DNA of 64,000 nt from Bacillus sp. J33 (GTDB lineage: Bacteria; Bacillota; Bacilli; Bacillales; Cytobacillaceae): the NCBI RefSeq assembly GCF_000518885.1, contig NZ_JAEL01000005.1, positions 62,001-126,000 of the forward strand. Reading direction: 5' to 3'. Below, in pieces: positions 3,698-35,799 of this stretch (its first letter is position 1; each line of letters starts with the position of its first letter). Position numbers and translations under genes: made by a program. The notes under the pieces were generated by a model. That model ran no database searches and was not told where the DNA came from. It worked only from the letters and a program-made list of their open reading frames with translations.

Positions 3698-6600
3698 CGG
3701 TATCCTCCTGCAAGATTGACATATCTGCCCAAAACGCACCCGCATGATCAACACGCTCTCCTACAATCCGACAGTCTGCTGTGCCTTCTCCGGCTATCAC
3801 ATAATAGTCATAACCTTTTTCGATTATTTTCCCATTGTTCGGGAACACCGCGAAGTCTGTTACAGATTTACGATACTGTGGATCAAGGAATACTTTCACA
3901 CCATCAGCATTCAAAGGAATGGAGAAATCAATATACTCAATCAAAACTTGAGGACTATCTATAGGTGACATGCCCAGATTCTCTCCGTCAACTACGATGG
4001 ATCCCCCTGTTTTACTACCGTCTGAACCGAAGGAGTGTTTTGCTACGCCTCCGAAATAAAGGACTGCAGATCCTGAGCTGTATGCAAGATAATCTGAAGT
4101 AGACCTTTGAAGACGGGCTATGTTTCCGGTCATGTCAATTTTACATCCAGTATTCGCCCAATCCATCACATTAGTGGACACTCGTACCACTGTAGTATTC
4201 TCATAGCCTAAGTATAGGATGCCTCCGGCAGCACTTACGGTCACATTTCCGTTATTATAATCACGGAAAAGATAGCCATTATTTGTACCAACAATACCGC
4301 TTGCTGTGTCAAGTTTGATTCCGCTGCTAGTCCCGGTTAAGTGTATTCTTCCGTTTGAAGGCATGTACAAATCCTTTGTTACACGTAGTTCGCCTACAAC
4401 TTCGACTACTCCCGAACCTGAGTTACCGTTGTTTGCCGCACTGATCTTAAGCTTGCCGCCTGGCAATCTAGTTCCGGTAGATACATACACTAAATCTTCA
4501 TAGACAATGGACGCTCCGACTCCTACGATCGGTACACCGCCATCCATTGCCTCTTCATCTATATACTGCCATACAGCCCCTCCGCCTAGTTGATTGTATT
4601 GAAAGGACGTACCACTAGGCCAGTATTTAAACAATCCGGCTGATAAGCTTGCGCTGTTAACGCCGTCATTCACGTTCACGCTTCCTGTGTAATTACCTGT
4701 AGCACCTGACAGCTTTCCGGCGTATGCCAGATCCCCGTTGCTGTCTGCGGAAATCATATCCGTCCACGTACTATTTATAAGCTTTTGGACCTTAAACCCA
4801 TCTGTAGCATTAGCAATAGTGCGTACCTTTCCATCGGAACGAATAGCCATAAAACCTGAAGTAGCGTCAATCTTAACGCCGTTATAAAGGATTCCTTTAT
4901 AGAGATTGTCCTCAACCGCTGGGCTCCAATTCGTTGCCTTGTCCCCTTCTTCAATCTGAACCTCTAAAAAGCGTATCCAAGGAGTAGTAGTAGGTGTTCT
5001 AGCCCCTAGCAGTAAACGGCAATCCGCAGCAGTGAAAGGCGCTGTAAACGTAAACGTTACTCTTCTAAAATCTTCACTAGTTGCATCATCGGCAACAATA
5101 GGATGGTCTGCTAAAACGATATTTCCTAAGTGCTGATTTGCATTACTGTTAGAAAGTAAGTAACAATAGTCCAGTTGCGTGATTGCAGAGTGATTAGACA
5201 CTAAAAATGAAACTGTATATTTCATACCTTGCATAACAGCAAAATAATTACCAGCACTGTCCTTTAAGTGGACAGCTATTGCATTTCCGGATGTTGTACT
5301 AGCCGTATACCAAAGCTGAAGAACTTTACGGACTGCTCCATTAATGGTTCGGTTCTGAATAGACAATGTGGAAGCTGTTGTATTCCAGGCTTGCCAGTAA
5401 TCTAAAGAATGGTCCCCTATATCCGTGTGCTTATGAAGGTTACGACCTCCGACTTTCAGTGCATTCACATAGGCTTTTGCATTGGATTCCGCTGTATTGG
5501 CCTTTGACAGTGCGCCTGCAGGAGTTTCTTTGGTGCTTGGATCGTATCCGGTAGCAAAATTTGTAGTAGACCCAATTTGTATACGTTCTGCATCTAAAAC
5601 ACCCGTTTTAATGACGCCAGCGTCTATCCCGATAGCACTAAACATCTCGGTTGTGACGGTAATGGCATTACTCCACTCTGTGCCATTCCACCTCTTCCAA
5701 ATATACGGGCTTACACTTGTATCTATCCATAAATCGCCAGTAACAGGATTAGACGGAGCAATAGTACTCTGGCTGATCTTTTTATTGGCATACGTCTCTA
5801 CAAAATCTGTGGCAGCTGCTTCCGCATCCGCGGCTTTGCCGGAAGAAATACTATCCAGCGCTGCAGCATGTGCAGATTCATAACGAGTTATAGCCAATCG
5901 GTATTCTTCTGTTTTTAATTCCAGATCAGAACGCTCAGAATCAGATATAATTTTATCAACGATCACAGCATCTATAACTGAAACCAAAGCGTTATATTTT
6001 TGGTCAAAGTTTGTTTTTGATGCTGTCAACTCCGTTTGAACAGTATCATCATATAATTGGGGATGATTATTTACGGAATTGAAACGCTCATCAAAAGCTG
6101 CTTTCTCTTTCAACAGCTGAATTTTATGCCCTTTTAGTTTCTCAATTTCAGATAATTCAACGGCTATGGCTTCGGCATATTCTTTGGCATTGCCTTCAGC
6201 AGTTCCGGCTACCTGTTCAGCATATTCTCTAGCAGCCACTACTTCTGCCTCAGATGCCTTCTTCTGCAGAACCGCTTTTAATGCTTTGAAAGTGGCCATG
6301 ATTTCTTCTTCTGTGTATTCGATAAAATCACCAAGAATAAACGTCTTTTTCGAACGATTGGACACCGCACGTTTTACCGAAATAATCCTGGCATCCAAGT
6401 ATAAAGGCGGCACATAGGACGTGTCTTTAATCCTTACTGTGTCGCCTTTTCTTACTTTCTCATGTTCATATCCTAAAATATGTTCAATAGAGACAGCATC
6501 CGCTTCATATAAGACGGAGGTATTGATACGCTTATCCAATTCCGCTCTCGTTAATGTTGTGAGACGCGCTTCTGTCATGTCCAGGTCACTGGTTTCTGGC

Positions 6601-23174: not shown

Positions 23175-23422
23175 GGTAACAGAAGGTAACAGATAACAAA
23201 TTCATCTGTTACCTCCTTAGACCCTTGGTACTACTGGGTTTTCATTCACTTTAGGGTCAAAAGGTAACAGATAAACCCCCTTATTTTCTTATATAGAATT
23301 ACTTCTTTTTTTTATTTAATATTAATAAAGAAAGTAAATCTTCTGTTACCTGTTACCGACACCCCTCAAACCATTGATATGATTGACTTTTTCGAGGTAA
23401 CAGATAAGGTAACAGGTAACAG
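23175..23422. repeat. Nine iterons GGTAACAG (both orientations), putative replication origin
   Basis: Exact copies occur at 23,175, 23,185, 23,263, 23,396, 23,408 and 23,415 on the plus strand, and at 23,206, 23,343 and 23,350 inverted. Several overlap by one base (GGTAACAGGTAACAG). An AT-rich segment (23,281-23,340) lies in the middle, as in an unwinding element. The block is non-coding and lies directly downstream of the primase-helicase gene. Confidence 0.8.
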
Positions 23423-23455
23423 ATAACGCCTGTTTTTTATTGAAAATCGTCTAAA

Positions 23456-23574
23456 ATGGTCACGTTTTTACCCATTTTCGTGACCGTTTTTTGCCACAAT
23501 AGATTTTAAAACCCTTGATACATAAGGATGGAGAAAATAATTTTGACCAAAAATGGTCACGAACCTTTGACCAT
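23456..23574. repeat. Second repeat family (ATGGTCACG / TGACCAT), likely origin- or helicase-linked
   Basis: ATGGTCACG occurs at 23,456-23,464 and 23,553-23,561. Inverted or partial copies are CGTGACC (23,479-23,485), TTGACCA (23,543) and TTGACCATT (23,567). TGACCAaaaaTGGTCA forms a palindrome at 23,544-23,559. Together with the GGTAACAG block this fills the 469-nt gene-free stretch before the primase gene. Confidence 0.7.
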
Positions 23575-23615
23575 TTCCCCTTTTTCAGGGTGATTTTGGG
23601 TGAGCGCGAAAAAAA

Positions 23616-25481
23616 TTACTCACTTTTAATGAAAATGCGTTTGTTTTTACCATCAACTTTTTGTTGTGTGGAAGTGTAACCAAATAATTGTTTTATTTGT
23701 TTACTGAAGCTGATATTGCTAACCGGCTGGAAACCATTATCTGAGCAATACAAACGATATTGGTCATACACATCTTTAACCACTCCACGCTCCAGCTGCA
23801 CATCTTCATTCTGTACAAAGCTGATAATCGGATTGTTTTCTTCTTGGTACTTCGATAGCTCGTCCTCAACAGCTTTGGATTTCGTAAATTGTTTGTTTTC
23901 AAGGAGTCGTTTGAGCGCTTTTAATGCTAAGTTCAAAACATAATGCAATGATTCTTCAGATAACAGCTTATCGGTAATGAAAGGATCATAGTCTTCATCA
24001 TGAACACTGAATTTAGCTTTAAATGGTACAATCTGCAGGCGTCTTCCTAAACCATCCGAATAATCATTAATTCTTGGCATTTCATTGGCAGAGAAAATTA
24101 ATTTTGCATAGTTAGTGAAATCAAACGGATCTTTTCCTTTTCGCTCCACATTCAAGGTTTCTCCAGTTGATAATTTCTTAAATACCGAGGATTCCTTGAT
24201 GTACCCCTTTGAAATATCATCACCAATGTTAACAAGCTTCCCAAATAATTCTGCCGTTTTAAATCGCTGATCAAGCTCTCTCAGGTCCAATGAAGATACG
24301 TTTTCTGTGCCGGCCAACCTCCGGATAATTTTCAGATAAGATGATTTTCCGTTGGATCCGTCTCCAGTAAGAATAAATGTTGCTGCAAATTCGTTTCTTC
24401 TGAAGAGAATGTAACCCAATATTTCTTCTAAGATGGCACGTACTTTTTTATCATTTACTGCCAACTTGCTGAACGTTTTATCTGTCACTTCATAATAAGC
24501 GTCCTTTATATAAGCCACAGGAATCTTATTTCTTGTAATAATCTCAGGTGAAAAGTCCATCAGCTGCCATGTTTCTAAATTAAATACTCCGTTTTTCACA
24601 GGAACATATTTTGTGGATGCAAAGTGCTTGTCCTTTGCCTTCAGCTGTAGATATGCCAAAGTTTCTTGACGCTGCATGCGTTTTAGTGATGGAATATGTT
24701 TGATCATGGCCTCTTCAATGTCAGCCTGGTTGTCTGAGTAAACACCATCTTTATAAATGTGAAGCAAGTTAGCAATCTTGCAAATATGATGTTCATTTAT
24801 CAAAAAATCACCGAATTTTTCATGTTGAAAAGAGTTTTTTACAAAAAAGGACTCTTTCATAAAGGCGTCATCACGTAATATTATGTTTAACTCATCTTTA
24901 CCAACTGGATCCTCTAAGATATAGGTATTAATGATTGAAATCGTTTCTTTAATATCTTTCTTAGCCAATCCTTGCGACTGCATTTTTAAGATATAAGTAA
25001 ACAATTTATCATTTCGCCCATCTCCAGCTGAAAGCTTGGTCAGGTTTGGATTTTTCTTATGGTAAGGATATAACCAGGCTGGCAGAGGAGCATGATCTTT
25101 TACCTTCCGGATCCATTTTCTTGTTTGGCCATTTATTTTTAATGGATCTGCTGTATTTTTGATTCCAAGCTTGTAATCACAGAGAATGCCAATATTGGAA
25201 TAACACTTTATTTTATTTGCTGTGATATCATATCCCTTAAAATAAAAGTGCATACCTCCGGTTGTCTCCAGGACTGAACATTGAATATTCTTATCCTCCA
25301 CAATATCCAGAAGTGTTTCCGCATCATCGATATCATCAACATCCACCATGATGAAATCATCTTCCAAAATACCAACAAAGGAATCTTCTTTTCTTGCTGT
25401 ATTATATGAAAGCAATTTACCACCATCTTTAAATGATGTAGCAGCATGCTTCCCATTCCCCTTTAGATATCCTTTATACAA
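23616..25481 (-). CDS. Primase-helicase (prim-pol plus D5/P4-type SF3 helicase)
   Basis: The 621-residue protein combines an N-terminal prim-pol-like part ('DDFIMVDVDDIDDAETLL', 'LETTGGMHFYFKGYD') with a D5-N linker and an SF3/P4-type helicase. The helicase shows Walker A 'ILTGDGSNGKSSYLKIIRRL', 'GKLVNIGDDISKGYI' and 'LIFSANEMPRINDYSDGLGR'. A winged-helix tail follows ('YRLYCSDNGFQPVSNISFSK'). It should prime and unwind at the phage origin, which is probably the iteron block downstream. It stands alone on its transcript between the cargo gene and the origin. Confidence 0.93.
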   Translation of the reverse strand: MYKGYLKGNGKHAATSFKDGGKLLSYNTARKEDSFVGILEDDFIMVDVDDIDDAETLLDIVEDKNIQCSVLETTGGMHFYFKGYDITANKIKCYSNIGILCDYKLGIKNTADPLKINGQTRKWIRKVKDHAPLPAWLYPYHKKNPNLTKLSAGDGRNDKLFTYILKMQSQGLAKKDIKETISIINTYILEDPVGKDELNIILRDDAFMKESFFVKNSFQHEKFGDFLINEHHICKIANLLHIYKDGVYSDNQADIEEAMIKHIPSLKRMQRQETLAYLQLKAKDKHFASTKYVPVKNGVFNLETWQLMDFSPEIITRNKIPVAYIKDAYYEVTDKTFSKLAVNDKKVRAILEEILGYILFRRNEFAATFILTGDGSNGKSSYLKIIRRLAGTENVSSLDLRELDQRFKTAELFGKLVNIGDDISKGYIKESSVFKKLSTGETLNVERKGKDPFDFTNYAKLIFSANEMPRINDYSDGLGRRLQIVPFKAKFSVHDEDYDPFITDKLLSEESLHYVLNLALKALKRLLENKQFTKSKAVEDELSKYQEENNPIISFVQNEDVQLERGVVKDVYDQYRLYCSDNGFQPVSNISFSKQIKQLFGYTSTQQKVDGKNKRIFIKSE

Positions 25482-28268: not shown

Positions 28269-28503
28269 TGTCCTTCACCTGAAGCACTTGCTCAGCCATC
28301 CTTACACAGGATGCAGCTGTTTCAATTAACTCCCGATAGACACCATCAAAGTCATCTTCCTGCATCGCCTGAGCTACTTCCCCGGCCTCTTCCATAATCG
28401 TTATAAACCGCATTGGCAGAGGTAACTTTTGAGGATGGATTAAGTCCTGGCGTTCTCTTTCAGAATCAATATCATTTAAAATTCTTTCTCTTACCTCTTT
28501 CAT
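28258..28503 (-). CDS. MazG-like nucleotide pyrophosphohydrolase
   Basis: The 81-residue protein contains 'MRFITIMEEAGEVAQAMQED', where EExxE-type acidic residues bind magnesium in MazG-like/dUTPase-related helices, then 'YRELIETAASCVRMAEQVL'. Phage MazG-like enzymes cleave (p)ppGpp or non-canonical dNTPs. It overlaps the homing HNH gene stop and the zinc-ribbon start, all in one leftward transcript. Confidence 0.82.
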   Translation of the reverse strand: MKEVRERILNDIDSERERQDLIHPQKLPLPMRFITIMEEAGEVAQAMQEDDFDGVYRELIETAASCVRMAEQVLQVKDNDV

Positions 28504-29231
28504 TACATCACTTCCTCAAAGCTTGAAATTTCTTCATATTCATCAGCCCACATAAATAGCATTCCAGCGCTGGTTTTAGTTTTCTTATTGCAGTTATCTA
28601 AAACTGATTGGTAAGAACGATAATTTTTTCTCCCTGCTTCTCTTGATGATCGATACTCATCTAATACATCAAGTGTTTCAGGGTCAATTTTTACTACAGG
28701 TCTTGCTTTCGCTTTATGAGCAGTTTTCTTCCCTAACTCTTTGTTGCTGATATATTCTAAGTTACCGGCAAAATCATCTGTGACAATACCATTTTTATGG
28801 TGAAGCACTTCACCAGGCTTTGGATCATCCAGAAAATGATGAGCAACTAAATGGCCAGTTTTCATTTGCTGGTATTTCCCTTTGAACCATACCTTCACCA
28901 TTAAGTGTTTTCTGTGTAGAAATGGGAGGATGAAGGAAGAATGATTTTTATACACGCGCTGCACCCGACCATAGCTTGAAATGAGGAACTTTCCTTCTGA
29001 TCCTTCAACTTCCTTCCACACTTCCTGATGATATTTTTCTTTGACGTACCATTCTTTTCTCTTGGCAAGAGTTACTTTTTCATCAACTAAATAACAGTTG
29101 ATTTTAGCTAATTTCGAACCCTTTGACATCATCGATTTAAGACTTGATTTTGTAACTCCTGCAATATCAAGAACATAATCAAAAGTAGTTTCTGTGAGAA
29201 TATTTGTCCTGGGATCATATAGATATAGCAT
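28503..29231 (-). CDS. NUMOD4/HNH homing-type endonuclease
   Basis: ATG 29,231 is 7 nt after AGGAGG. Residues about 70-95 ('EVWKEVEGSEGKFLISSYGR') are a NUMOD4 motif. 'KTGHLVAHHFLDDPKPGEVL' with 'HHKNGIVTDDFAGNLEYIS' is the HNH nuclease, and the C terminus ('VLDEYRSSREAGRK') is a NUMOD1-like DNA-contact helix. It is free-standing, not inside an obvious intron. Such genes spread by cutting allelic sites in phage DNA and repair. Confidence 0.9.
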   Translation of the reverse strand: MLYLYDPRTNILTETTFDYVLDIAGVTKSSLKSMMSKGSKLAKINCYLVDEKVTLAKRKEWYVKEKYHQEVWKEVEGSEGKFLISSYGRVQRVYKNHSSFILPFLHRKHLMVKVWFKGKYQQMKTGHLVAHHFLDDPKPGEVLHHKNGIVTDDFAGNLEYISNKELGKKTAHKAKARPVVKIDPETLDVLDEYRSSREAGRKNYRSYQSVLDNCNKKTKTSAGMLFMWADEYEEISSFEEVM

Positions 29232-29424
29232 CCCTTTTCCTCCTAACAAACTGATCTATCAAAAAGTTTCTATTGTTTTCCAATAGTGCATAATTTACAA
29301 TGGTCATTGGAGAGTTGCAAAAACATGGATCAAATGGGAGCACCCCAACCATTGCGCAACTTTCTTTTTTTTTGCCTCCTAATCAACTGAACTATCATTT
29401 TGTTTCACTAAACCTTCGAATTGT

Positions 29425-30178: not shown

Positions 30179-30670
30179 TTATTCAACTTCAAATATTTCA
30201 ACGATCTTGAATGTATCGAATCCATCCTTATTCGTGCCTTTTTCAAGCAGATATTCAAATTGCCCATCAATCTCTTCATGAATATCTAGAATCAAATCAG
30301 CATAAGCTCCAAACCCAGTGAATTTAACATCATCCTTTTCGCAATCCCAAAGCGCACGCAGCATTTCATTGTTTTGGTGAACCTGAATGCCAAATGCTTT
30401 ATCGTTTTGCGGCTGCATTACTTTGTTGTAGAAAATACGCTGATTTTCATAATCACCGTCTACAACCTTGAACCAGATTGATAACATTGGATCACCTTTG
30501 GATGATTCCTTAAGCTCCATCTTTTCAACTTCAACCTCATACTGCCCATCCGGAAGTGGCTCAAAATCACCGCCGCCATTTTCCTCAACTTCTTTTACAT
30601 CTTCCGCAAGAGCTTCCAGATCCACCTGCTTGTCAAATTTACCCCAATCAAACTTTTTATCCTCTGCCAT
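30179..30670 (-). CDS. DUF669-like phage protein (ssDNA-binding/recombination accessory)
   Basis: The 163-residue protein reads 'FEPLPDGQYEVEVEKMELKE', 'GDPMLSIWFKVVDGDYENQR' and 'MLRALWDCEKDDVKFTGFGA', the conserved layout of DUF669. It is generally found beside Sak4/Erf-type recombinases and probably binds DNA with an OB-like fold. It follows the acidic 115-aa gene directly and is cotranscribed with the recombination module. No C-terminal DDDLPF tail is present. Confidence 0.82.
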   Translation of the reverse strand: MAEDKKFDWGKFDKQVDLEALAEDVKEVEENGGGDFEPLPDGQYEVEVEKMELKESSKGDPMLSIWFKVVDGDYENQRIFYNKVMQPQNDKAFGIQVHQNNEMLRALWDCEKDDVKFTGFGAYADLILDIHEEIDGQFEYLLEKGTNKDGFDTFKIVEIFEVE

Positions 30671-31017
30671 TATTGTTCATCCTCCTCATCATCGTTGCCA
30701 ATTTGTGATCCATCAAAATCTTCTTCCTCATCATGGTTTACAGAAACAGTACCATCAGTGCCAACGCTATATTCAACACCCTCATGCTGTTCTTCTGGCT
30801 CTTCTTTTTTAGAAGGTCCATTTTCCATAATTTCACGTGGCGTATCATAGCTAAAAGCCAGGTCAACCAAGAAATAAGTGCCGTATTTATTGTGCTTTTC
30901 ACTAATTTTAAAAGATGTTAAATAGATATCACCCTTTGCTTCTTCAACAACCTTTTCAGCCTCTTCACGAGTGTCAGCGTAATGCTGCTCCTTTGTATTA
31001 AGCTCTTTAACTGCCAT
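30670..31017 (-). CDS. Recombination-module protein with acidic C-terminal tail (115 aa)
   Basis: ATG 31,017 lies 8 nt after GGAGG, and the stop overlaps the DUF669 ATG. The ordered part ('GDIYLTSFKISEKHNKYGTY', 'FLVDLAFSYDTPREIME') looks like a small beta domain. The C terminus is nearly all Asp/Glu ('NHDEEEDFDGSQIGNDDEED'), as in SSB-like or DNA-mimic proteins. No OB-fold signature is strong enough to call SSB. Confidence 0.7.
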   Translation of the reverse strand: MAVKELNTKEQHYADTREEAEKVVEEAKGDIYLTSFKISEKHNKYGTYFLVDLAFSYDTPREIMENGPSKKEEPEEQHEGVEYSVGTDGTVSVNHDEEEDFDGSQIGNDDEEDEQ

Positions 31018-31057: not shown

Positions 31058-32985
31058 TTAAAATGGCAGGTCATCATCTGAGATATCGATGACCCCACCA
31101 TTGTCTGAAAACGGGTCATTGATTAACTTTTTTTTTCACGTTCTCTTCTTGATCTACGACTACGAGTTCCCTTTTCATCCCCTTTAGCTTCTGCAGAGTC
31201 TTCTTCACCTGGCGGCGTATCATCTTCAGTCGGCTTACGGGAACGGCGCTGGCGTCCAGGCTTTTCTTCATTTATAGGAGCATCTTCCGTTTTGCGTGAG
31301 CGTCTTTCACGCTTTGGTTTTTCTTCAGGAACACCGTTAACATCATCTTCTGAATCTGGTGTTGTCATTTCTATTTCTTCTTCATCCGTTTCAATCTTTT
31401 TACGGGATGAACGTTCACGCTTAGGCTTTTCGTCACTTTCTTCTTTCTTAGCTCGTCCAGTACGCTTCGCTTTCTCTTTGGTTTTAGATGCTTTGCCTTC
31501 CTGGGCAGCTGTTAACTCCTCAATAAATGTTTCCATTTCCAACGGGATGGTATCGACTTCAAAATCAAAACGGCCTCCACCGAATACATTTTGTTTCTTA
31601 GCCAACTGCAGGAATCTTTCATCCTCAGAATTCACGAAAGCACGTAATGTTAAATCCACAGTGCCAGTAAGGAAATTGGCGACCTTGTCATTAATATTTG
31701 GTTTAAAGGTTGTTCGCTTGGATCCACCCTTCAAAGTGATTTCTTCAACCTTTTCTTTACTGATATAAATCAATTGATAACCAAGAGCTTTCAAACGCTT
31801 CATGGCGTTATTAAATTCAGTTGTAACCTTAGACCACCCTTTACCATAAGAACCGTCAGATTCATGCTCCCAGCCGTTCTTATCAAACACATAGACACGG
31901 CAGTGTTCGTAAATATCCTCAACCAGATCCAGGGCAACTGCTTCAAAGTCATTCTCTTCCGTTTCAAGTTCTGATAAGGTATCCAAGAAAACATCCCAGG
32001 CTAATTTACGATTTGTAACCCTGCCAGTTTTTGTGACAACATCTTTAATTGATACAACTGGAGCAGTGGTGTTATCCGTGTTCCCATCAGTATTGAGGAA
32101 TAACACGTTATCCACACCATCCACAAATGTGGACTTACCAACATACGAATCTGCGTATATCCAGAAATCTGGCTTCGTATCGATCTTTCTTTCACGACGT
32201 TCATTTTTAGGCAATGCCATTAAAATCTCTCCCTTATCATTTTCTATAGCTTCCAAGTAATTGGGCCTGAACCGCGGGTTGCAGCTGAAGCATTTTCCAC
32301 TGGCATTCTTTTTAGAGTAATCAGTAGTTTTCTCAATTTTGTCCATGCTGTTCTTGAAGTAAATGGACTCCATTTCATTAAATTCAATTGGGACAAACTT
32401 TACTTCTGATGCTTCAACTGTTTCAACCAGGCGTTTACGGAAATGGAATAAATCCTCTTTATCTTTTTGCTTTATGCTTGTCTTTGGAACGAATAGATAA
32501 GCCAGCTTTTTAACATTGAACCCATCTTGCTCTAGGTAGTCTTTGTAAATATGTAGCTGTCCGGATTCTAAATAGTTCTTGATGTTGTTCGAATACTTGA
32601 AATCCATTACCATGCAAGTATCATCAGGTGCCTTTATGATCAGATCCACAAACCCGAGATAACGTTCGTGATCGATTTTGTATTCATGGATAAACTCACA
32701 ATCTGCGAAACTCTGATTCAAGAAATCCTTTACTTTGGGAATGAGTATTTCTAACTTTATTCCTTCTTCAATAATGGCATCCGTTAAGACTGGAAAAGCA
32801 TTGTAGTATTCATGAAGAGAAGTCTCCACATCATGCTCAATTCCAGAGTGCAAAGCACGGCCAATTATTAAAGGGGTATCAGCATCTAATTTTGGAATTT
32901 CAGTAAGCTGCTGATTATATCTAAGATCAAAGTGATAGGGACAGTCATTGAATAATGAAACCCGGCTGTAACTGTATTGGCTCAT
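31058..32985 (-). CDS. Proposed -1 frameshift product: RecB-nuclease/Sak4 recombinase with SSB-mimic tail (642 aa)
   Basis: Slipping back one base at the A-run (31,129-31,135) continues reading past the zero-frame stop for 23 codons. The new tail reads K-L-I-NDPFSDNGG-V-IDISDDDLPF and ends in a stop at 31,058. IDISDDDLPF is the exact C-terminal peptide of Bacillus SsbA as I know it, and the preceding DPF...G pattern also matches. This tail recruits RecO, PriA, RecG, RecQ and others to SSB. A hairpin begins 5 nt after the heptamer. If the A-run is really one base longer, the tail would simply be in frame. Either way the SSB-like tail belongs to this gene. Confidence 0.75.
31084..31135 (-). promoter_or_regulatory. 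Proposed -1 frameshift signal (A9 slippery run plus hairpin)
   Basis: In the reading frame the codons are GAA AAA AAA AGT, giving A AAA AAA at 31,129-31,135. Downstream, ATC-A-ATGACCC pairs with GGGTCAT-C-GAT (31,113-31,123 with 31,085-31,095), ten pairs with one A-C mismatch around a 17-nt loop. The spacer is 5 nt, the optimum seen for bacterial frameshift stimulators. Confidence 0.7.
31123..32985 (-). CDS. Zero-frame product: RecB/Cas4-type nuclease fused to Sak4-like RecA-fold ATPase (620 aa)
   Basis: Residues about 1-245 are a PD-(D/E)XK nuclease: 'ALHSGIEHDVE', 'RYLGFVDLIIKAPDDTCMVM', 'DFKYSN', 'SGQLHIYKDYL' and a Cys-rich end ('SGKCFSCNPRF'). About 265-490 is a Sak4-type ATPase with P-loop 'YADSYVGKSTFVDGVDN', then 'FEAVALDLVEDIYEHCRVYV' and 'LGYQLIYISKEKVEEI'. 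About 505-620 is a low-complexity Lys/Arg/Glu tail with repeated 'EEKPKRERRSRK'. Sak4 proteins anneal ssDNA with help from SSB. The nuclease-Sak4 fusion would couple end resection with annealing. Confidence 0.88.
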   Translation of the reverse strand: MSQYSYSRVSLFNDCPYHFDLRYNQQLTEIPKLDADTPLIIGRALHSGIEHDVETSLHEYYNAFPVLTDAIIEEGIKLEILIPKVKDFLNQSFADCEFIHEYKIDHERYLGFVDLIIKAPDDTCMVMDFKYSNNIKNYLESGQLHIYKDYLEQDGFNVKKLAYLFVPKTSIKQKDKEDLFHFRKRLVETVEASEVKFVPIEFNEMESIYFKNSMDKIEKTTDYSKKNASGKCFSCNPRFRPNYLEAIENDKGEILMALPKNERRERKIDTKPDFWIYADSYVGKSTFVDGVDNVLFLNTDGNTDNTTAPVVSIKDVVTKTGRVTNRKLAWDVFLDTLSELETEENDFEAVALDLVEDIYEHCRVYVFDKNGWEHESDGSYGKGWSKVTTEFNNAMKRLKALGYQLIYISKEKVEEITLKGGSKRTTFKPNINDKVANFLTGTVDLTLRAFVNSEDERFLQLAKKQNVFGGGRFDFEVDTIPLEMETFIEELTAAQEGKASKTKEKAKRTGRAKKEESDEKPKRERSSRKKIETDEEEIEMTTPDSEDDVNGVPEEKPKRERRSRKTEDAPINEEKPGRQRRSRKPTEDDTPPGEEDSAEAKGDEKGTRSRRSRREREKKS

Positions 32986-34309: not shown

Positions 34310-34576
34310 TTAACCGGAATACCTGGCAAAAGCAACGCCATTTTCTTTAGCTAATTTTTTACGTTCCCTACGGTTTAAAATCTCACCATAATCTTTTTTG
34401 ATTGCTGTAGAAACAGCCGATAATCCAAGTTCACCAGGTTGATAGGGTTGTTTGGTACTACGTGGGGCTTTAGCTCTTACACCCTTTTTCATTTCAGCAA
34501 AATCACGAGCAATCCCAGCTTGTTTGGCAACCCTAAAAGCTTGCATTTGGTCTATAAATCTTCTTAAAAAACTCAT
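34310..34576 (-). CDS. Basic early protein (88 aa), unknown
   Basis: ATG 34,576 has AGGAGG upstream and overlaps the helicase stop (ATGA). The product is basic, with 'MSFLRRFIDQMQAFRVAKQA' and 'YGEILNRRERKKLAKENGVA'. It may assist the helicase encoded just upstream. No motif recognised. Confidence 0.7.
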   Translation of the reverse strand: MSFLRRFIDQMQAFRVAKQAGIARDFAEMKKGVRAKAPRSTKQPYQPGELGLSAVSTAIKKDYGEILNRRERKKLAKENGVAFARYSG

Positions 34577-35799
34577 TCCATTTCCTCCTTCTCGAATAAA
34601 GCATCTGTATAATCTTTTCGCTCTCTCAGGACTTCGAGCATTCTCCACTCAATGGATCCATCTGTGAGCAGATAATAATAAAAGCATGGTTTCTCCTGGC
34701 CAATCCTGTGAATCCGTTTCTTGCTCTGCTCAAACAGCTCGCTCTTATCTGTGAGGGTAAAGTAAACGATCTTGTTTGCTTTCTGCAGGTTAAGACCCAT
34801 TGCGCCTGCCTGGTACTGAATGAGCGTTACAGAGTTTCCATGCTCCTCATAAGCTGATAAATCTTTTTGATCACCATTGACTGTGCTGATTGGTTTATTG
34901 ATAAGATCCACTAATGCTGCGTATTCCTTTTTAAAGTTGTAGAATATGATCATTCGATCATTCGTACTATCGATTAAATCTTTTACATACTGCAGTTTGT
35001 TTTGGTTGTATGCCCCTGCCAATTGCCGGAGATACAACTTCTTAGCAGCTGGGGTATCACCGATTAATTCTTGCTCACCAATCTCAATGATGTGGTCCTT
35101 TGTAAACTGCTTGTATTCTTTGGTGCCTGGTATCTTTACGATTTGGTCATTAACTGCAGGAAGATCAAAGACCTCTTCCGTCTTCATAAAGATGGCACCA
35201 TATTGCCGAAGCTTTGCTTTCAAGCGTTCCACATTTTTATAACCGGTGATGACAAACTTTTGATTCCGGTCATCCCATTCCTGGACAACAAATTGCTTTA
35301 AAAATAGTTTTTTTGTAATCTTCCAACCTAACAAATGCAGTTGTGACCATAATTCTTCATATTTTCCACCTGTAGGTGTTCCAGACAGAAGAATTACATT
35401 GTCAGCTGCAAGCTTCAGAATGAATTTACTCCGATTGGAAGATTCATTTTTTATCATGGAGGACTCGTCCATCATTAAAGTAAAATTCCTAAGCTTTAAT
35501 AATTCCGGCCGCCTCCAGACTTTGTCATAGTTGATGATTAAGACACTTTCTGGAGGAATATCCTCAATGCGCTGCTGATCAAAAACAATAACTTCATAGT
35601 CATAAAACTGATGGAAATGATCTTTCCAATCATCGATCTTTGATTTTTGACAGATTACAAGATTGTATGGGGTATTGAGCTCCCACATCTTTTCTGATCC
35701 AACGAATGTCTTCCCCAGACCCATGTCCAAGTAATAAGCAACACGGTCTTTTTGATATGTGTCATTCAATGCTCGTTCCTGGTGTGGAAAAAGTTTCAT
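34573..35799 (-). CDS. SNF2/SF2-type phage helicase
   Basis: The 408-residue protein has the SF2 set: motif I 'YLDMGLGKTFVGSEKMWEL', motif II 'LMMDESSMIKNESSNRSKFI' (DESS in place of DEAH), motif III 'VILLSGTPTGGKYEELWSQL', motif V 'TLIQYQAGAMGLNLQKANKI' and motif VI 'QSKKRIHRIGQEKPCFYYYL'. It lacks the accessory domains of chromatin remodellers, as do other phage SNF2 helicases. It probably remodels replication or recombination intermediates. It heads the leftward recombination block. Confidence 0.94.
   Translation of the reverse strand: MKLFPHQERALNDTYQKDRVAYYLDMGLGKTFVGSEKMWELNTPYNLVICQKSKIDDWKDHFHQFYDYEVIVFDQQRIEDIPPESVLIINYDKVWRRPELLKLRNFTLMMDESSMIKNESSNRSKFILKLAADNVILLSGTPTGGKYEELWSQLHLLGWKITKKLFLKQFVVQEWDDRNQKFVITGYKNVERLKAKLRQYGAIFMKTEEVFDLPAVNDQIVKIPGTKEYKQFTKDHIIEIGEQELIGDTPAAKKLYLRQLAGAYNQNKLQYVKDLIDSTNDRMIIFYNFKKEYAALVDLINKPISTVNGDQKDLSAYEEHGNSVTLIQYQAGAMGLNLQKANKIVYFTLTDKSELFEQSKKRIHRIGQEKPCFYYYLLTDGSIEWRMLEVLRERKDYTDALFEKEEME

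Follow-up and report, generated by a model that had tools for sequence, protein, structure and literature searches.

How does a phage recombinase gene come to carry, beyond its stop codon and out of frame, a C-terminal tail like that of a host single-stranded DNA (ssDNA)-binding protein (SSB), and is this tail used? The question is raised by the nuclease-Sak4 gene in a 64-kb stretch of Bacillus sp. J33 (contig NZ_JAEL01000005.1, positions 62,001 to 126,000), here called the window. The 3' end of the gene is arranged so that the tail lies behind a shift-prone site, the arrangement recurs in relatives with different signals, and the tail frame diverges in a coding-like manner. From these comparisons, we consider it quite probable that, in these phages, part of the nuclease-Sak4 protein receives an optional SSB tail of host-like sequence through recoding.

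The features of the locus are listed in Table 1. The N-terminal domain of the protein (residues 4-194) matches PDDEXK_1 in Pfam (2.8e-14), which places it in the PD-(D/E)XK nuclease superfamily, and residues 271-473 form an AAA_24 (Sak4) ATPase domain (1.8e-38), the mark of Sak4-like annealing proteins; annealing itself is predicted. The PHROGs matches are the exonuclease family phrog_8097, across nearly the whole length (3.3e-249), and the Sak4-like family phrog_124 (6.2e-35). An Arg/Glu-rich C-terminal linker follows the ATPase domain, and no OB fold or SSB domain (PF00436) was detected in the zero-frame protein by the Pfam scan. In the PDB, the fusion has no sequence relative at E 0.01, and the tail gave one meaningless match. 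The zero frame ends GAA CGT GAA AAA AAA AGT TAA, with a run of exactly nine A (A9), and the shift-prone A_AAA_AAA sits in zero-frame codons starting 12 nt before the stop, as in programmed -1 frameshifting. The C-terminal D-D-D-I/L-P-F tail of SSB type is present in the -1 frame only. A first-pass annotation had described this arrangement, EREKKS and a stop behind the A9 run with the -1 frame open to an SSB-type tail, and had stated that no other gene in the window carries such a tail. Both statements are borne out: a strict scan for an SSB-type C-terminus, covering the window in all six frames, gave the single match KKKLINDPFSDNGGVIDISDDDLPF, and a looser scan gave no other place. The tail frame is closed by a TGA directly 5' of the A-run and has no ATG, GTG or TTG 3' of it, so that a change of frame or of RNA is required to express the tail. 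An independent small ORF was rejected on these grounds for the tails of the window, L034, L029 and L076, where the tail frame is likewise closed just 5' and lacks these start codons. At the three +1 loci and L031, described below, the open tail frame extends further upstream, leaving an internal start possible; in L001, the +1 frame (4343-4897) is open for about 185 codons across the Arg/Glu-rich linker, and an internal start is possible there.

To place the gene among its relatives, loci were gathered from IMG/VR, genome contigs, genome searches and phage records, three of the IMG/VR searches supplying the best 80 relatives of 297, 351 and 287, respectively. The 257 loci gave 244 usable matches, from which 10 were dropped (no stop or too little 3' DNA) together with 101 duplicate ends, leaving 133 distinct 3' ends. 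An out-of-frame strict SSB tail lies past the stop in nine of the 133: at +1 in L001, L022 and L093, and at -1 in the window's own phage (L011), L029, L031, L034, L074 and L076. This supports the earlier proposal of a hidden tail reached by recoding, and the homologue search that had been suggested with it thus returned a set with out-of-frame tails, six of them at -1. L034 is an independent prophage in genome G017, with a protein 75% identical to that of the window; the same 21 bases, GAACGTGAAAAAAAAAGTTAA, stand at its A-run, and its tail is again at -1. L001, L026 (Jeotgalibacillus salarius) and L041 have one common C-terminus. In two near-identical ends, L101 and L140, the tail is in frame behind a TGA. 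Among the remaining 122 ends, L064 (EINLDDIPF) and L068 (EINEDEIPF) carry it in frame, L062 has EINEENVPF followed by four more residues, and L114, ending in KTDDLPY, was counted as untailed. Two later homologues outside the 133, L259 and L260, have no tail, and additional genome searches yielded no new tailed locus.

The signals at the shifted loci are of several kinds. The window and L034 read GAA AAA AAA AGT TAA; L029 reads GAA AAA AAG TAG, with A_AAA_AAG abutting the stop; L031 reads AGA AAA AAG, from which the -1 frame is open onward to the tail; and L074 and L076 read TCA AAG TAA (A_AAG-stop). Thus, four of the six -1 loci have an in-frame A_AAA_AAR from which the -1 frame runs uninterrupted into the tail, and the other two have A_AAG-stop. 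All three +1 loci read CGT CGG TAG C, where a shift would skip the T and resume at AGC. Among the 122 other ends, an in-frame A_AAA_AAR occurs within the last 40 codons in 11, of which L063 alone has a -1 frame that continues beyond the stop for over 5 nt, and a terminal A_AAG or CGG occurs in none. In L063 (AAA AAA TAA, stop at 4654), the -1 frame is open for 62 nt beyond the stop, and the extension is basic, with no SSB tail. The -1 frame of L031 encodes, between A_AAA_AAG and the tail, the Arg-rich stretch ARRERRSSRR, which resembles the zero-frame end. A_AAA_AAG is a strong -1 site in bacteria. Shifting at A_AAG is described for Bacillus cdd, +1 shifting at CGG_(A) for glass sponges, and other +1 shifts for Listeria phage PSA (PMC5009743). 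The recurrence of CGG_TAG_C in the three loci suggests it as a candidate +1 shift site. The metagenomic homologues L101 (4765-4809) and L140 read SSE-TGA-IVIDEVSDDDIPF-TAA, a possible TGA readthrough. A genetic code with TGA as a sense codon is a less likely account of L101 than readthrough or decay: its protein has no internal TGA up to that stop, and TAA or TAG closes the other likely genes nearby.

Chance was examined with 2371 distinct ORF ends, namely those of six-frame ORFs called mechanically, with a minimum of 80 codons, in loci L001-L260. The strict tail in a shifted frame or behind the stop was found in the nuclease-Sak4 gene only, in ten loci, two of which were scored twice via an overlapping frame. 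With one strict motif in the six frames of the window and no other gene among the 2371 ends, a chance origin of the tail was rejected. The signals were also searched together with the tail in IMG/VR. For CGGTAGC followed after 40-70 nt by the tail, 101 stretches were reported and 103 matches were examined for open frames. The zero frame is open to the TAG for 473 codons in L268 (the same as L022) and for 351 codons in L330 (L093), both Sak4 homologues; in the other 101 matches it is open for at most 128 codons, and in all but one of those (L322) the tail frame is open for at least 70 codons, like ordinary genes ending in the motif. The scan for AAAGTWR with the tail gave 11 stretches. A long zero-frame ORF ends at the site in three, all Sak4 homologues (L386, L391 and L392, corresponding to L076, L074 and the window's phage), and in the other eight, 60 codons or more are open in the tail frame itself. 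A phage protein of about 394 residues (L393:1439-2623) has the in-frame C-terminus DEDPFSDGSSPIEISDDDLPF.

Next, the divergence of the tail frame was measured in the pairs L022-L093, L001-L029, L074-L076 and L011-L034, with the stop and the six codons of the motif set aside. L011 and L034 were compared across the last nine codons only, because a longer comparison (7 synonymous, 7 nonsynonymous) is out of register. Codon positions 1, 2 and 3 have 2, 1 and 16 differing sites, respectively (P 7e-6 against equal thirds). Phage tails were also compared with the host ssb genes codon by codon, L031 being left out: L034 and the ssb of G017 differ by 10 synonymous and 2 nonsynonymous codons of 20, L029 and G934 by 7 and 3 of 21, L001 and G350 by 11 and 4 of 21, and the window and its own genome, G000, by 6 and 1 of 12. 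The shifted frame is thus kept in relatives, as programmed -1 frameshifting would require, through lineage-specific signals and in the minority of ends, since 119 of the 133 lack it.

The tails themselves resemble the SsbA ends of the hosts. Specifically, the host SsbA end and the phage tail are DDDPFAGSGQIDISDDDLPF and IDDPFAGFGQIDISDDDLPF in G017, EDPFKNNGEPIDISDDDLPF and TDPFANNGEPIDISDDDLPF in Virgibacillus, KDPFSNDGQPIDISDDDLPF and YDPFANDGQPIEISDDMLPF in Jeotgalibacillus, EDPFEKNDDPIDISDDDLPF and INYDLPIEITDDDLPF in Marinilactibacillus, and QDPFANDGQIDISDDDLPF and NDPFSDNGGVIDISDDDLPF in the window genome. Of the 120 ways to assign the five tails to the five SsbA ends, the own-host pairing has the best total score, as it does among the 24 ways without L031; the own-host score is clearly the highest for three of the five tails, and that of L031 is tied with another host. 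Where the host is known, the tails therefore tend to follow its own SsbA end, the window's least well. As for origin, 61-79% of the 90 nt of L022 tail DNA matches, at 76-80% identity, phage sequences of which most carry an ssb annotation, in Psychrobacillus and Staphylococcus phages (25 records, 20 of the 25 listed). This similarity points to capture of an ssb 3' end, a likely origin of the tails. A quick tree was built from the first ~510 residues of 55 proteins, taken from homologues at 47% identity or more together with the tailed ones; L022 was left out, and untailed rows that were nearly identical were thinned. It requires 10 changes among the five tail states and 9 for the untailed state alone, at least 7 of these 9 being forced by starred branches. 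The tailed members are scattered, which implies repeated gain or loss of the tail; the tree does not separate the two.

Several observations weigh against an optional, recoded tail. No tail is found in 119 of the 133 homologue ends (L114 included), so the tail is dispensable in the family, and the in-frame tails of L064 and L068 mean that recoding is not obligatory. One distant pair, L001-L029, supplies 10 of the 16 third-position differences, L022-L093 has 3 nonsynonymous against 2 synonymous codons outside the motif, and L074-L076 has no differing sites there. The window tail scores 73 with its own host's SsbA and 78 and 77 with those of two other hosts. The slip site of L031 lies about 20 codons 5' of its stop, and a bacterial CGG_TAG_C shift site was not found in the portions of the recoding literature covered. 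Stimulators are not uniform either: no hairpin is common to the tailed loci (the window, L034, L029, L031, L074, L076, L001, L022 and L093), and no Shine-Dalgarno-like stimulator word recurs consistently among them. The conserved 3' stimulatory structure expected of programmed -1 frameshifting is thus lacking. In the window, a 58-nt segment including the hairpin folds at -14.5 kcal/mol (z -0.75), and 40 of 200 shuffled sequences are at least as stable; L034, its A9 sister, has no comparable stem (z +0.63, 141 of 200 shuffles as stable).

Elsewhere, shuffles as stable number 27 of 200 for each of L029 and L031, and 6, 12 and 101 of 200 for the +1 loci L001, L022 and L093 (z +0.12 in L093). L074 and L076 have stems of 7 and 5 bp, starting 5 and 6 nt into the piece that begins with the stop codon (7 and 18 of 200). 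Rfam gave no match at the gathering score. The hairpin that the first-pass annotation had put forward as a stimulator does exist, with its one mismatch, but it is unneeded to explain the data, its role as an essential stimulator is not supported, and L034 does without a comparable stem. Structure may be an aid in some members, not a shared element.

Whether the ribosome or the RNA polymerase shifts at the A9 run has to be weighed at the window itself. Runs of nine A or T cause the RNA polymerase of bacteria to slip very efficiently, and Thermus dnaX makes use of such slippage (PMC5009743). The window's A9 run has this length and is present unchanged in L034, in which a ribosomal site could do with fewer A. 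That the window tail is made from an A10 mRNA by such slippage, and not by ribosomal frameshifting, is a serious possibility, to which we give slightly less than an even chance. Among the shifted loci, a run of at least nine occurs in the window and L034 only; the other seven of the nine have no A9 (CGG_TAG_C stands in three, A_AAG-stop in two, and A_AAA_AAG within a shorter run in each of L029 and L031), and the ribosome is likelier there. Of the -1 ribosomal shift proposed at first, the -1 register on A9 therefore stands, while polymerase slippage is about as plausible at that run, and relatives also use +1 and possibly TGA readthrough. Long homopolymers are error-prone in sequencing, and a true run of ten A would put the tail plainly in frame. 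With the same A9 in the independent genome G017, which shows that the window's run is not a lone sequencing error, and with seven other loci out of frame without A9, such an error is hardly credible.

The tail could also be a dead, untranslated scar, left where an ssb 3' end recombined behind sak4 or where an in-frame tail was broken by an indel. The ssb-like tail DNA of L022, which makes ssb capture a likely origin, and the 119 untailed ends would fit such a history. Against it, the frame varies from lineage to lineage and is always accompanied by a shift signal, placed at the stop or (in L031) about 20 codons earlier, the divergence is mostly synonymous overall, and three of the five phage tails nearly match the SsbA end of their own host. 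Moreover, no resident ssb with a canonical tail lies in the 133 loci, the sole SSB-like end outside Sak4 being a far-upstream ORF of L058 with the loose motif EELPW. We regard a scar as unlikely. Still less probable is a degradation tag, by which the long form would be destroyed by ClpXP and the shift would tune the protein level. In certain strains of Streptococcus mutans, ClpXP degrades green fluorescent protein (GFP) that ends in DDDLPF or LPF, but S. gordonii, S. sanguinis and three further S. mutans strains are reported not to do so (PMC5143411), and a three-residue signal would not require the longer host-like stretch that precedes it.

According to the favoured explanation, an optional tail added by recoding, part of the product would end at EREKKS, and another share would switch at the A9 run to the -1 frame, by a ribosomal slip on A_AAA_AAA before the stop, by RNA polymerase adding an A, or by both. 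The -1 product would gain about 23 residues resembling the host SsbA C-terminal tail, and relatives would gain a similar tail via A_AAA_AAG, A_AAG-stop, CGG_TAG_C at +1 and perhaps TGA readthrough. Different signals for a similar tail imply selection on the optional tail, not on a particular signal. We infer from these comparisons that the tail is translated on a proportion of the protein and that its partners are those of host SSB. On phage ssDNA, the tails of a Sak4-fusion oligomer would dock host SSB-tail readers (such as RecO, RecJ, PriA and RecG), and docking would let recombination intermediates become replication. A phage with a tailless ssDNA-binding protein of its own (DUF669) could present the tail on some of its Sak4 oligomers. 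Recoded tails (nine shifted and two near-identical post-stop) outnumber in-frame ones (two and the L062 variant), which suggests that a full complement is unfavourable; we speculate that the acidic tail competes with the Arg-rich end for DNA.

RecQ is among the partners of the SSB C-terminus. The title of one study links RecG and PriA to this C-terminus in Escherichia coli, and in B. subtilis the SSB C-terminus is described as recruiting at least 12 maintenance proteins, RecO and RecJ included (PMC3000357). The last ~20 residues of the window tail resemble host SsbA ends; unlike SsbA, the window protein has no OB fold, and the tail stands on another protein, out of frame only. Sak4 of phage HK620 is reported to be stimulated by its SSB via the last six SSB residues (PMC5928155), and replication of Staphylococcus phage phi11 to need Sak4 and the phage SSB (PMC5499656). 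The window gene shares with both the AAA_24/Sak4 domain, a nearby ssDNA-binding gene (DUF669) and the SSB partnership, but differs in its fusion to a PD-(D/E)XK nuclease and in the Arg/Glu-rich linker; its SSB tail lies behind the recombinase itself, whereas the corresponding tail of HK620 belongs to a separate SSB (PMC5928155). The word frameshift is absent from the main texts of PMC8093625 and PMC5928155, and no report of an SSB tail on an annealing protein was found among the titles and abstracts listed by searches of one open-access literature collection. We also liken the window gene to lambda G/GT, in which a share of the product is presumably extended C-terminally by a shift. In Shigella spa13, too, a share is extended by shift or slippage (PMC5009743). 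The window extension differs from these two in being a host-protein docking peptide on a recombinase, within one gene family that has several shift types. The -1 shift of Bacillus cdd, at A_CGA_AAG, is like the A_AAG-type sites of L074 and L076; it is described as incidental and yields an extended cytidine deaminase (PMC5009743).

Table 1. Positions of the features discussed, in window coordinates.
Feature	Position	Strand	Basis and remarks
Nuclease-Sak4 gene, zero frame	31123..32985	-	PD-(D/E)XK nuclease + Sak4/AAA_24 ATPase fusion, 620 aa, C-terminus EREKKS-stop
Zero-frame stop TAA	31123..31125	-	Sequence
A9 run	31128..31136	- (T on +)	In-frame A_AAA_AAA, then AGT TAA; candidate -1 ribosomal and RNA polymerase slippage site
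-1 frame extension KKKLINDPFSDNGGVIDISDDDLPF-stop, SSB-type tail	31058..31135	-	Sequence; stop at 31058-31060
Hairpin, 10 outer pairs with one mismatch	31085..31123	-	3' of slip site; role doubtful
phrog_25377 gene, function unassigned	30670..31017	-	PHROGs; next gene downstream
Phage ssDNA-binding protein, DUF669 / phrog_7778	30179..30670	-	Pfam, PHROGs; downstream of nuclease-Sak4 gene
SNF2-type helicase	34573..35799	-	Pfam, PHROGs; upstream, same module

In the neighbourhood of the gene, the DUF669 protein ends in KIVEIFEVE, without an SSB tail. In Firmicute phages, sak4 is described as most commonly upstream of SSB genes, DUF669 included (PMC8093625). The two PF00436 SSB genes of the window genome are both on contigs other than the window's. 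A NUMOD4-containing gene, probably a homing-type endonuclease, lies inside the replication module (28503-29249, - strand), and a second T9 run is found at 29365-29373, outside the nuclease-Sak4 gene. Paenibacillus phage PG1 (HQ332138.1, ~23267-23686; L395:2144-2563) has an ssb gene that is missing from the annotation, whose OB fold (ending VRFLE) is separated by an in-frame TAG from a full SSB tail with the end DPFNDDGKPIDISDDDLPF; the TAG may reflect readthrough, a sequencing error or a mutation.

If the explanation is true, a protein other than SSB bears the host SSB docking tail via recoding, different recoding routes reach one trait within one gene family, and gene callers can miss short functional tails. 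The link of phage recombination to host fork restart would then become testable. More broadly, and with about equal odds for and against, these genes may represent a class of phage recombinases in which mimicry of the host SSB tail is controlled in dose. The tail would have been taken again and again from the SsbA of the current host, or adapted to it, and placed behind any available recoding signal (-1, +1 or stop readthrough); present on a share of subunits, it would give the phage access to the host SSB interactome without an SSB.

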